Positions 5,413 through 9,390 of a stretch of 37,202 nt of DNA are shown here, piece by piece. The position numbers and the translations under genes are program-made. This DNA comes from Actinomycetota bacterium (GTDB taxonomy: Bacteria; Actinomycetota; Actinomycetes; Nanopelagicales; Nanopelagicaceae). The stretch spans positions 1 through 37,202 of the forward strand of contig WLHC01000008.1 in the NCBI GenBank assembly GCA_009702925.1, written 5' to 3'. The stretch's first letter is position 1. Each line of letters starts with the position of its first letter. The notes under the pieces are model-generated. The model did no database searches. It worked only from the letters and a program-made list of their open reading frames with translations, and had not been told where the DNA came from.

Positions 5413-6810
5413 ATGCTGACACAGACTAATAATCACAGCCAAACTTTTAGATTCATGCCTACAACTTCAGTTCCAGTAGACCCGAAACGAGTCGAAGAGA
5501 TACTCAAGCAAGAATGGCAACTATTCACGAAAGACACAGGTAAGAGTCAGACCGAGAGTGCGCGTTCTCATAAATCGCTGCCACTTGGAGTGACATCAAG
5601 TTTTCAACACTGGGATCCGTATCCGATTTCAATTGTGAGCGCACAGGGCGCCTATATGACAGATGTCGATGGTCGTAAGCTCTTGGATCTCTCGATGGGC
5701 TTTGGGGCAATGCTTGCAGGCCACCTCAATCCAGTTGTGGTCGAGGAGATCCAGAAATCTTTATCTGAAGGAATGCTTTTTGTGACCCCTTCACCGACTT
5801 CAACTGAGGCTGCAGAGATGATCTGTACTCGCTTTGGAATTGATCAGGTTCGCTTCACAAATAGCGGAACAGAATCAACTATGTATGCCGTCCGTGTTGC
5901 GCGAGCAGCAACTGAGAAAATGGGAATTCTTAAAGTAGAGGGTGGCTACCACGGTAGCTATGATCCATTTGTAGTCTCTGCAAAGCCTCCAATTAATCAT
6001 GCAGGAGACGCTGAAGAACCAACACCATACATTGAGTCGAATTTAGTTCCTGGTGATATCTATGTTGTTCCATTTAATAACATTCCTGCACTAGAGCGCA
6101 TGTTTGAAAAAAATGCTAACAACATTGCTTGCTTTATTGTTGAACCGGTTCTAGAAAATATTGCGATCGTCCTGCCTGATGCAGGCTATCTGGAGCGCGT
6201 GCGAGAGCTTTGCGATCAATACAAAGTTGTACTAATTTTTGATGAAGTTAAGACAGGGCTTACTGCAGGAGCACATGGTGCTTCAACTCGTTTAGGAGTT
6301 AAGCCAGATCTGATTACTCTTGCTAAATCCATTGGTGGCGGAGTGACAGTTGCCGCTTTTGGTGGAAAAAAGCAGTTCATGGATTTTGTCACTAATGGCA
6401 AAATGGCTCACTTTGGTACGTTTAACGGTAACCCTCTTGCAATGGCAGGTGTTCGCGCAGTTGACCGCATTTGTTCAGATGGCGCACTTGAAGCTGCTGA
6501 AGCATTAAATCAACAAGCACTCGATCGCATTGGTGCAATTATTGAAGAGTATCAACTGCCGGCTCACACTGTAGGTTTTGGCGTAAAGGGATGCGTTACT
6601 TGGTCAACAACGCCAGTTCGCAACTATCGTGATTACAAAGCAACAGACTTTTCCATTGCAGAAGCACATTGGTTATTTGCAATTAACCGCGGAATCATTA
6701 CGCCACCGGGACTTGATGAGCAGTGGTTAATTTCTTTGGCACATGGCCAAGAGGAGATTGACCTGTTGGTTGAAGACTTCCGTGAGTTCGCAAAGGCTCT
6801 ACGCGCCTAA
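5413..6810 (+). CDS. Class III aminotransferase, glutamate-1-semialdehyde-aminomutase-like
   Basis: This 465-residue PLP enzyme of fold type I carries DVDGRKLLDLSMGFGAMLAGH, the phosphate-binding SGTESTMYAVRVARAAT, YHGSYDPF, IFDEVKTG (cofactor Asp) and the Schiff-base lysine in LITLAKSIGGG, at about residue 305. The overall pattern is closest to glutamate-1-semialdehyde 2,1-aminomutases and related omega-aminotransferases. No haem-biosynthesis genes lie nearby, so the substrate is left open. The start is uncertain: ATG 5413 is used, but ATG 5455 (MPTTSVPVD) would also preserve the domain, and neither has a clear ribosome-binding site. The last 12 codons and about 16 downstream bases are duplicated at 9228-9284. 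Confidence 0.85.
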   Translation: MLTQTNNHSQTFRFMPTTSVPVDPKRVEEILKQEWQLFTKDTGKSQTESARSHKSLPLGVTSSFQHWDPYPISIVSAQGAYMTDVDGRKLLDLSMGFGAMLAGHLNPVVVEEIQKSLSEGMLFVTPSPTSTEAAEMICTRFGIDQVRFTNSGTESTMYAVRVARAATEKMGILKVEGGYHGSYDPFVVSAKPPINHAGDAEEPTPYIESNLVPGDIYVVPFNNIPALERMFEKNANNIACFIVEPVLENIAIVLPDAGYLERVRELCDQYKVVLIFDEVKTGLTAGAHGASTRLGVKPDLITLAKSIGGGVTVAAFGGKKQFMDFVTNGKMAHFGTFNGNPLAMAGVRAVDRICSDGALEAAEALNQQALDRIGAIIEEYQLPAHTVGFGVKGCVTWSTTPVRNYRDYKATDFSIAEAHWLFAINRGIITPPGLDEQWLISLAHGQEEIDLLVEDFREFAKALRA

Positions 6811-6826
6811 TATAAAGAAGAAAAGC
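6770..6826 (+). repeat. 57-bp direct repeat, copy 1 (aminotransferase 3' end)
   Basis: Positions 6770-6826 match 9228-9284 at an offset of 2458 bases with only three differences that I can see, at 6805, 6813 and 6826. The copy covers the last codons of the aminotransferase (EDFREFAKALRA), its stop and the following purine-rich stretch. The two copies bracket the two secreted-protein genes. Confidence 0.9.
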
Positions 6827-7006
6827 TCTGCCTCCATGGGACTGGCGTGCCCTCGCGCACTTAGTAAAAAGCTTTATCAGTGGTCCTATAATTAACAATC
6901 GGCGCTATTTCTGAGCCTGCGGGGTTGTGTACTCCCTATAAACATGTATTTCCCAAACAAACAGCGATATTCTCTACTAAACGCGGCATCCACAAAGGAA
7001 AATGAA

Positions 7007-7828
7007 TTGAGAGTTATCAAAGCATCTGCGGTTGTGCTCTTAGCAAGCATTTTCTTATCCTTACTCTCACCGCATTCAAGTTCTGCCGCCTATTCTGCTG
7101 AAGATCTAGTTCGTGAGATTCCAGAATTTGAAGAAACATTAGCTATTTTGATTTCAAAATTACCGATAGAAGAGAAACGGTTAATTGAAATTAAGATTTC
7201 GGCTAGAAATCAATGGGGTAGTGATGACCCAGCAGAGATTTATCAACTTTTGTCAAATGATGCCACCCCAGGAGTCCCAAAGGGTTACATTAACTATAGA
7301 GATAATCTGGTAAAGGTAAATAGTTCTATTCTTTGGCTTAAGAACCAGATAGCTATTTACCAAATAGAAATTCCAAAAATGAAAGCAGAGTTAGAAAGGT
7401 TGAAAGCAGCAGAGGCAACGGCAACGCCCACACCTTCGGCAACGCCCACACCTTCGGCAACGCCCACACCTTCGGCAACGCCCACACCTTCGGCAACGCC
7501 CACACCTTCGGCGCAATTTCAAATTAATTATGTAGAGTCTCATCAGAATTTAAAGACTGAAATTTCAATATTGATAAAGAAATATCCAAGTCAAAAGAAG
7601 ATTCTGACTGTTTATCTAAAAAAGCTAGAAGTTATTAATCCTTTAGATCTAAACAACTCTACTTACATTGAAAAGAATTTACAAGATATTCGATCAAAAA
7701 TTGAAGTTACCGAAACAATTGTTAATCAGAATGCTAGGACGATAACTTGTGTAAAGGCCAAGAAAATCCTCAAAGTAAGAGATTTGAATCCCAAATGCCC
7801 TACGGGTTATAAGAAGGTTGAGAAGTGA
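7007..7828 (+). CDS. Secreted Pro/Thr-linker protein with C-terminal Cys/Lys motif
   Basis: I do not recognise a family. The chosen start is TTG at 7007, because AAAGGA lies eight bases upstream and it places a clean signal peptide at the N-terminus (RVIKASAVVLLASIFLSLLS, cleavage near SSAAYS). The open frame extends back to an ATG at 6944. The mature part has a charged helical region (about residues 30-135), a linker of five perfect ATPTPS repeats, a second charged helical region, and a C-terminal motif beginning ITC and ending NPKCPTGYKK. The downstream solute-binding protein ends with a related motif. The genes overlap by four bases (GTGA), implying coupling. The pair lies between 57-bp direct repeats and is probably an insertion. 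The protein is probably exported; no enzymatic motif is seen. Confidence 0.75.
   Translation: MRVIKASAVVLLASIFLSLLSPHSSSAAYSAEDLVREIPEFEETLAILISKLPIEEKRLIEIKISARNQWGSDDPAEIYQLLSNDATPGVPKGYINYRDNLVKVNSSILWLKNQIAIYQIEIPKMKAELERLKAAEATATPTPSATPTPSATPTPSATPTPSATPTPSAQFQINYVESHQNLKTEISILIKKYPSQKKILTVYLKKLEVINPLDLNNSTYIEKNLQDIRSKIEVTETIVNQNARTITCVKAKKILKVRDLNPKCPTGYKKVEK
7421..7510 (+). repeat. Five perfect 18-bp tandem repeats (ATPTPS codons)
   Basis: The unit GCAACGCCCACACCTTCG occurs five times in a row without a mismatch. It encodes an Ala-Thr-Pro-Thr-Pro-Ser linker and keeps the reading frame whatever the copy number. The perfect identity suggests recent expansion by slippage. Confidence 0.97.
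7742..7816 (+). other. C-terminal Cys/Lys motif, copy A
   Basis: These 25 codons start ITC-x-K-x-K and end NPKCP-x-GYKK, with a valine conserved between. Fifteen of 25 residues match the motif at 9139-9213. There are two cysteines and an excess of lysine, close to the C-terminus of a secreted protein. Confidence 0.8.
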
Positions 7829-9219
7829 AGCGAATTTTTTTCAGCTTAGTTCTAATTTTTTGTCTAATATCTCCAGTAATTTCTCCAGCCAACGCAAAAA
7901 ATGAAGTGGGAATCTCAAAAACAGAGATTCTCTTGGGCGCAACCAATCGACAAAATACGGCGACAACGTCTTACCCTCAAGATTTTTTCACCGGTGCACA
8001 AGCATATTTTGATTATTTGAACAGCAAGGGAGGAATTCAAGGTAGAAAAATCCGCTTGATTTTGAGGGATGATAAAGGTTTGACTCAGTACGCCGTTAAT
8101 GAGGCCAATAACTTATTGTCACGAGACAAAGTATTTGCACTGTTTAACTCAGCATCATTTACTTCTGGCCACTTGGCGATGGCCAGCTACTTGAAATTAA
8201 ATGATCGAAATATTCCAAATCTGGCTGTCACTGAGACTTTCTCTCAATTTTCTGATCCAGGCAAGTATAAAACTACTTTTCAGGCTGCACCGAATAATAG
8301 ACAGGAGTTTGCGGTCCTTCTTCATTTCTTGGAAAAATCTTTCAGTACAACACCATTCAATGCCTCATTACCAGGTGATGACACAAAAACTGATTTTAAG
8401 GCAATTCATCAGGCTTCAACGAAGAATTTAGGGACAGTACCATTTAGCTTTCCCAACTCCTTAGGGTGTCCGGGTATTCCATACTTTCAAAACAATGCTG
8501 GAGTCCTTAGTCTGTGGAGAACTCATTGTGGGGGCCCACTAGCATCTCTGGTTATTTCTGATGCCTATCCATTGCTCATTCGTGGTAATTCCATTTCAAC
8601 ACCATTAGGGGCATGGCAAGTTGCTTCGACTCTTTCTAAGAATTTGTATGCTAATTTCTATATGCCTCTTCACACTGACTTACAAGATCCTTATATAGAA
8701 TTTTTCACCAAGGTGTTTAAGGAATTTATTCCTAACCTTGATTTCTCTCTTGAAATTCAAATTGATTCACCAAAGTCTTCTTTTAATTACGTTTCACAAC
8801 AGATGTATGAGGGTGCTAATTCAGCATATGTCCTGTCTCAAGCTATAGCAGCACTTGGTCCTCAACCTACTCGAGCAGGATTGATTGCTTATCTCAGAGA
8901 TAATTCAAAATCACTATCCAGTGCAACATTCCATCCTGTCGATTATTCTTCAGGAAGCAATATTGGTAATACAATTCAATACATCGCTAAGTATGATGGA
9001 AGTAAATGGGTAAAAGTTTCAGACTACTATCTTATAAACCCAAGTGGCACATCAATACAAGTTGTCTCTCCCCAAAGAAAACCGATATTGCCTGATGGTT
9101 TACCTGTTACAAAGAGGGCAGAGCAATCGGCAAACAGCATAACTTGCATGAAGAAAAAAACGACTAAACAAGTGACCGGAACAAACCCGAAGTGTCCTGC
9201 GGGATATAAGAAAATGTAA
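7825..9219 (+). CDS. Type 1 periplasmic-binding-protein family solute receptor
   Basis: This 464-residue exported protein has a signal peptide (MKRIFFSLVLIFCLISPVIS, cleavage near ANAKNE). The fold resembles Leu/Ile/Val-type receptors (Peripla_BP_6): GISKTEILLGATN at the first strand, FFTGAQAYFDYLNSKGGIQG, RKIRLILRDDKG, and a C-terminal QMYEGANSAYVLSQAIAALG helix. No lipobox cysteine is seen, and no ABC permease or ATPase lies nearby, so it is an orphan receptor here. It ends in a 25-residue motif (ITC...NPKCPAGYKK) shared with the upstream gene. The GTG start overlaps the upstream stop by four bases. It is the second gene of the repeat-bounded insert. The substrate is unknown; branched amino acids, amides or urea are family possibilities. 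Confidence 0.82.
   Translation: MKRIFFSLVLIFCLISPVISPANAKNEVGISKTEILLGATNRQNTATTSYPQDFFTGAQAYFDYLNSKGGIQGRKIRLILRDDKGLTQYAVNEANNLLSRDKVFALFNSASFTSGHLAMASYLKLNDRNIPNLAVTETFSQFSDPGKYKTTFQAAPNNRQEFAVLLHFLEKSFSTTPFNASLPGDDTKTDFKAIHQASTKNLGTVPFSFPNSLGCPGIPYFQNNAGVLSLWRTHCGGPLASLVISDAYPLLIRGNSISTPLGAWQVASTLSKNLYANFYMPLHTDLQDPYIEFFTKVFKEFIPNLDFSLEIQIDSPKSSFNYVSQQMYEGANSAYVLSQAIAALGPQPTRAGLIAYLRDNSKSLSSATFHPVDYSSGSNIGNTIQYIAKYDGSKWVKVSDYYLINPSGTSIQVVSPQRKPILPDGLPVTKRAEQSANSITCMKKKTTKQVTGTNPKCPAGYKKM
9139..9213 (+). other. C-terminal Cys/Lys motif, copy B
   Basis: This is the second copy of the 25-codon C-terminal motif, at the end of the solute-binding protein. The spacing of both cysteines, the GYKK end and the position within two residues of the stop match copy A. 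Confidence 0.8.
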
Positions 9220-9224
9220 TCTAT

Positions 9225-9268
9225 TGCTTGAAGACTTCCGTGAGTTCGCAAAGGCTCTACGCGTCTAA
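9225..9268 (+). pseudogene. Remnant of the aminotransferase 3' end
   Basis: In the frame of the original gene this reads LLEDFREFAKALR followed by Val and a TAA stop, against LVEDFREFAKALRA at 6764-6810. It has no start and no upstream body. It is a displaced duplicate left on the far side of the two-gene insert. Confidence 0.85.
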
Positions 9269-9284
9269 TACAAAGAAGAAAAGC
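9228..9284 (+). repeat. 57-bp direct repeat, copy 2
   Basis: Second copy of the repeat at 6770-6826. It also contributes the T-rich tail of the tRNA-Arg terminator on the other strand, so it probably sits in the original tRNA-side context. Confidence 0.9.
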
Positions 9285-9311
9285 CCCCGGTGTGAAAGGC
9301 ACCGAGAGCTT
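9271..9311 (-). terminator. Rho-independent terminator of tRNA-Arg
   Basis: Read on the minus strand, AAGC and CGGTG arms (9311-9308 and 9304-9300) pair with CACCG and GCTT (9292-9288 and 9284-9281) around a seven-base loop. A T-rich tail (TTTTCTTCTTTG) follows. It lies just downstream of tRNA-Arg. It could also slow plus-strand transcription, but there is no T-run on that side. Confidence 0.7.
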
Positions 9312-9317
9312 AACTTG

Positions 9318-9390
9318 TGCGCGCGAAGGGATTCGAACCCCTAACCTTCTGATCCGTAGTCAGATGCTCTATCCGTTGAGCTACGCACGC
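9318..9390 (-). tRNA. tRNA-Arg (anticodon ACG)
   Basis: This is a 73-base cloverleaf. The acceptor GCGTGCG pairs with CGCGCGC (one G-T pair), the anticodon arm is CTGACTACGGATCAG with anticodon ACG, the T-loop is TTCGAAT, and the discriminator is A. CCA is not encoded. The A34 would be converted to inosine to read CGN codons. The copy is intact and is not split by the nearby repeat. Confidence 0.95.

Follow-up and report, generated by a model that had tools for sequence, protein, structure and literature searches.

Tycheposons are tRNA-associated cargo elements with a tyrosine recombinase, known from Prochlorococcus and also from freshwater Methylophilaceae (PMC10872708). In Ca. Methylopumilus, the additive flexible genomic island fGI-2 is bounded by repeats of a tRNA 3' end (PMC10872708), and integrase-less, helper-dependent mobilisable units have been termed 'hitchers' (PMC11389934). 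The insert described here belongs to a known kind, represented by islands with tRNA boundaries, by tycheposons and by elements that depend on a helper (PMC10872708, PMC11389934); it is a small member with unusual boundaries.

The insert lies in a window of 37,202 nucleotides (GenBank assembly GCA_009702925.1, contig WLHC01000008.1, positions 1 to 37,202), which is the whole stretch of DNA that was analysed. The host, a tiny freshwater bacterium, belongs to the genus Candidatus Planktophila (Nanopelagicaceae), which includes Ca. P. versatilis, and is represented by a draft genome. This group is among the most abundant and most streamlined freshwater bacteria. The resident gene encodes a class-III aminotransferase (5413..6810, plus strand; PF00202, E 4e-59) with orthologues in 118 of the 135 genus genomes. 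An intact tRNA-Arg(ACG) is located at 9317..9390 on the minus strand, and its intrinsic terminator (9281..9311, minus strand) is conserved in relatives. In an Rfam search the only match was the tRNA itself, plus one sub-threshold match over the same tRNA.

The 3' end of the aminotransferase gene was found twice, as a direct repeat on the plus strand (6763..6826 and 9221..9284) with 94% identity and mismatches at 6765, 6769, 6806 and 6813. The repeat measures 64 bp and is thus slightly longer than the 57 bp (6770..6826 and 9228..9284) claimed in an earlier note on this DNA; this inner part contains two mismatches (96.5% identity). The longest exact run between the copies is 36 bp, and the match is far above chance (blastn E 1e-23). 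The repeat comprises the last 15 aminotransferase codons, the stop codon and 16 bases beyond, and it extends as far as the base of the stem in the tRNA-Arg terminator. Copy 1 is the gene end itself with the following 16 bp, while copy 2 is non-coding and joined to the tRNA terminator. An alignment with four sister species (G016, G086, G154 and G073) revealed three bases that are common to both copies and absent from all four sisters, which indicates that the duplication was made after the window lineage had split from G154, the nearest sequenced sister (92.5% nucleotide identity in the aminotransferase gene). At three of the four sites that differ between the copies the changed base is in copy 2, the fourth site being ambiguous, so copy 1 is taken as the native gene end and copy 2 as a drifting duplicate. 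Judged from this alignment, the resident gene end was the template of the repeat, which arose within the window's lineage.

The insert amounts to 2.46 kb, consisting of about 2.4 kb of new DNA and the second copy of the 57-64-bp host sequence, and its GC content is 39.3% compared with 42.8% for the window. Only two coupled genes, c1 and c2, lie between the repeat copies, and both encode proteins with an N-terminal signal peptide, as read by eye. Gene c1 (6944..7828, plus strand) probably starts at TTG 7006, preceded by the Shine-Dalgarno-like sequence AAAGGAAAA, and stops at 7828. Its product has a coiled N-terminal part, a (TPSA)n linker and a 29-residue C-terminal tail; the Pro/Thr/Ser/Ala linker is encoded by an 18-bp tandem repeat (7419..7512, plus strand), and Pfam gave no family above its cut-off. 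Gene c2 (7825..9219, plus strand) starts at GTG 7825, overlaps c1 by 4 bp and encodes an exported Peripla_BP_6-type binding protein (PF13458, E 9e-19) that has no lipobox and ends with a 29-residue tail as in c1. No relative of c2 with more than 35% identity was detected in 296 genomes of the order, and no donor of the c1-c2 pair was found in these genomes or in IMG/VR. The IMG/VR scans gave no relative of c2, a match of c1 by the shared tail only, and none for the left-end sequence. As DNA, the left end of the insert, which includes the c1 leader (6827..7005, plus strand), gave only chance-level matches of 17-25 bp genus-wide besides the repeat. No integrase or transposase reading frame occurs between the copies, PF00589 was absent from c1 and c2 in the Pfam search, and the window's own contig contains no helper integrase.

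The corresponding site is empty in two of the sisters. In G016 a distance of 52 bp separates the stop of the aminotransferase gene from tRNA-Arg, and one repeat copy, the terminator and the tRNA follow each other with no insert; the same order was found in G086. In G154 and G073 the aminotransferase end directly joins the terminator, again with no insert at that place, and other cargo is present inside tRNA-Arg. Here the tRNA-Arg 3' half (44 nt, to the anticodon loop) lies on the aminotransferase side, followed by the cargo and then by a complete tRNA-Arg. The cargo of G154 consists of a trypsin-like protein (a weak match, below the Pfam cut-off) and a DUF4436 protein, and that of G073 of HSP20 and a small exported protein. 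Since c1 and c2 are missing from the spacer in all four sisters, they represent a gain in the window lineage. On this comparison the insert was acquired after the split from the nearest sequenced relative, in the spacer of about 50 bp between the aminotransferase gene and tRNA-Arg(ACG). The locus is a polarised case of gene gain, with four sister species lacking the genes and one carrying them. The cargo codes for cell-surface or secreted protein, with which the cell faces phages and nutrients; the locus therefore permits a direct test of surface-function exchange between species.

Several claims of the earlier note agreed with these results: the origin of the segment by insertion, the duplicated aminotransferase end, the two genes for exported proteins as the only ones between the copies, the lack of an integrase, and an ancestral aminotransferase end adjoining the tRNA-Arg terminator. 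The note had also suggested looking for an empty site with a single repeat copy, and such sites were found in G016 and G086. Different cargo, which the note had also proposed to look for, was found at the locus in sisters: G154 and G073 carry other cargo, flanked by tRNA-Arg halves and lying inside the tRNA. The aminotransferase end did not prove to be the usual docking site. Judged by the flanking duplications, relatives use the tRNA-Arg gene itself, and no repeats comparable to those of the window were present at the other loci examined, except for a degenerate, element-borne remnant in G087.

Thirty-two of the examined loci, including the window, reached tRNA-Arg. The distance from the aminotransferase stop to the tRNA ranged from 44 bp to 9.3 kb in these loci, with many different genes in between. 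A short gap is not always ancestral, as the 77 bp of G150 seem to retain the end of a gene that is present there in G117. The 3' half of tRNA-Arg (43-44 nt) serves elements of related genomes as their attachment core, and it occurs in duplicate in G018, G154, G073, G087 and G143; in G143 the fragment is present and the contig stops short of the tRNA. Direct repeats of the tRNA 3' end were found at both boundaries in G154, G073, G087, G018, G109 and G102. The 5.6-kb element of G018 encodes a tyrosine integrase (PF00589) whose start is about 0.1 kb from the tRNA. Close relatives of this integrase occupy the same place in G109 (6.3-kb element, 52-bp tRNA-Arg repeat) and G102 (5.2 kb, 43-bp repeat). 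The right arm of the integrase-less unit of G154 matches that of the G018 integrase element at 95.5% over 67 bp, and its left arm matches that of the G073 unit at 97.7% over 130 bp, the cargo being different; cargo units thus share ends with autonomous elements. In Ca. Planktophila tRNA-Arg(ACG) is therefore an integration hotspot, both for small tyrosine-integrase elements and for integrase-less cargo units, and the window insert was gained recently at a place where genes turn over rapidly. One tRNA gene is thereby indicated as an entry door, and a likely helper integrase has been identified.

A further close relative of the G018 integrase, with 70% identity, was encoded in G014 by a 4.2-kb element (L326, 4275-8481) with a 49-bp flanking repeat that resembles the 3' end of another tRNA, and the family may accordingly have several tRNA targets. 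Ca. P. versatilis MMS-IA-79 (G087; L139, 1683-4749) carries an integrase-less insert in tRNA-Arg with a GMC-type oxidoreductase gene and a second gene. This insert is flanked by the 44-nt tRNA repeat and contains, at the tRNA side, a degenerate aminotransferase end with terminator (85% over 120 bp), which differs in type from the host's own and is of another lineage's type. The site is empty, with 44 bp, in G157, a relative of G087. Together with the repeat of the window, this remnant indicates that transport or copying of pieces of the aminotransferase end took place here on at least two occasions.

A further feature is shared with the integrase elements. Near its left end the insert contains the sequence GCTTTATCAGTGGTCC (6871-6886), at a distance of 44 bp from repeat copy 1. 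In the elements of G018, G102 and G109, GCTTTATCAGTAGGTCC lies immediately upstream of the integrase gene, in G018 at 57 bp from the attachment core. The pattern GGACC(N)ACTGATAAAGC occurred in four of the 135 genus genomes with one copy each, namely in these three elements and in the window insert, and it has the same position and orientation relative to the core-side end, and the same orientation toward the first gene, in all of them. Compared with shuffled sequence the similarity gave p values of about 0.001-0.015, for a motif of 16 bases that was noticed before it was tested. The motif is suggestive of a tie between the insert and the tRNA-Arg integrase elements, and it may be a promoter or operator instead of an attachment-arm site. 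Apart from these 16 bases, no significant sequence was shared between the insert ends and other elements. Just before the motif, CGCGCAC-TTAGT was considered as a possible inverted remnant of the tRNA 3' end, which together with the motif aligns in order to the element arm; on its own it added little significance.

In comparison with the described systems, the window resembles tycheposons in having variable cargo beside one tRNA, and both a tyrosine recombinase and repeats of the tRNA 3' end occur at related loci of the genus. Occupied and empty sites with variable cargo are also found among the relatives. The insert differs in having neither a recombinase nor a tRNA repeat, no tRNA-Arg fragment being detectable inside it at the blastn level, and in its size of 2.4 kb compared with 4-200 kb for tycheposons (PMC10872708). 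Like 'hitchers', the insert carries nothing but cargo and occupies a site that autonomous relatives use, and the G154 unit has one arm in common with an integrase element; unlike in hitchers, the repeats of the insert are not the core of the helper, and movement in trans is putative here. As in fGI-2, cargo was added next to a tRNA in a streamlined freshwater bacterium, whereas the bounding repeat is the end of a protein gene and not of a tRNA. Two other kinds of mobile unit were considered and rejected. For an integron gene cassette, a simple pattern test of the insert detected RYYYAAC once and GTTRRRY nowhere, and hence no attC-like pair. For an insertion sequence or transposon there was no transposase reading frame, and the inverted repeats were short, imperfect and internal.

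The insert may be best explained as an integrase-less relative of the tRNA-Arg elements that bears two exported surface proteins. It would have entered through the short aminotransferase-end/terminator sequence, which produced the direct repeat, and a recombinase acting in trans was probably involved. If the two copies then recombined with each other, the cargo would be lost and the site would be empty, as in the sisters. We give this explanation, whose mechanism is inferred, about an even chance of being correct. The missing integrase and the tRNA core, which is not duplicated, are points against it, and so are the shortness and after-the-fact discovery of the motif, the lack of other similarity between the insert ends and the elements, the position of the nearest integrase of the same genome away from tRNA-Arg, and the negative search for a donor. 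A broader and doubtful proposal is that Ca. Planktophila has a set of minimal integrase-less cargo units of 2-3 kb, which would be moved in trans by the tRNA-Arg-targeting tyrosine integrase family; some of the units code for exported proteins that end in the same tail. The neighbouring gene end and terminator would offer the integrase a secondary site, and the window would be an example of its use.

A somewhat less probable but serious alternative involves no mobile element. Imported DNA could have been attached on one side through homology in the conserved aminotransferase/tRNA region and on the other by an illegitimate junction. A switch of template in the course of repair is a second route, and in each case a duplicated host segment would be left around the new DNA. 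Homology-facilitated illegitimate recombination, the first of these routes, is reported for naturally competent bacteria and for conjugation in E. coli (PMC3240628). The two repeat copies belong to the lineage of the window itself, which fits an origin of copy 2 from resident or conspecific DNA, and the absence of an integrase, of a duplicated tRNA core and of shared element ends agrees with this explanation. The degenerate aminotransferase end at the tRNA side of the G087 insert likewise shows fragments of the host gene end being carried or copied here. Recombination of this type leaves unexplained, however, why the leader motif is shared only with tRNA-Arg integrase elements and why the event took place at an element hotspot.

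It is improbable that the insert is a self-standing element with the aminotransferase 3' end as its attachment site, restoring the gene on integration as the earlier note had proposed. The direct repeats do span the gene 3' end and terminator with the reading frame intact in copy 1, and the 44 bp from motif to repeat are near the 57 bp from motif to tRNA core in the G018 element. Copy 1, however, has native bases at both ends, three of the four differences are changes in copy 2, and the lineage-specific bases are common to both copies; moreover, no use of such a site is seen in any other genome, and there is no integrase. An assembly artefact is very unlikely even in a metagenome-assembled genome of 57 contigs and 77% completeness, because four sites distinguish the copies, the 36-bp exact run between them is below the usual k-mer length of assemblers, and the flanks are colinear with the sisters on both sides.

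The nearest integrase in the window's own genome (G000:C47) is a relative with 46% identity. It is not beside tRNA-Arg, and its locus showed no similarity to the repeat or to the insert ends. This integrase gene and one neighbouring gene (L319) are flanked by a terminator-like 28-bp direct repeat (1-28 and 1862-1889, 93% identity) that touches the contig end. Further integrase relatives were observed singly or paired between surface-protein-like genes at L323 (G028:C104), L322 (G086:C7) and L321 (G073:C2). The 5' ends of these genes are inverted repeats of 149 nt (100%), 121 nt (94%) and 137 nt (93%), an arrangement that resembles an inversion switch for surface proteins, driven by a recombinase.

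The C-terminal tail of c1 and c2 (encoded by 7733-7819 and 9130-9216; further loci L289-L318) has the form ITCxKGKxTKKVTxxNPKCPxGYKKK with two cysteines, and it also ends the trypsin-like cargo protein of G154. In c1 and c2 it is not part of any Pfam or NCBIfam family. A profile search detected the tail in 206 of the 296 genomes of the order and in 15 of 17 genera, the number in a single genome reaching 23; in a class-wide sample of 246 genomes there was no match outside the family. Each of the 31 copies that were checked ends 3-5 residues before the stop, although a few proteins hold several in a row. Four IMG/VR contigs (L281-L284) encode an exported trypsin-like protein bearing the same tail, which looks like an undescribed surface-retention or sorting tail that is also used by viruses of these bacteria.
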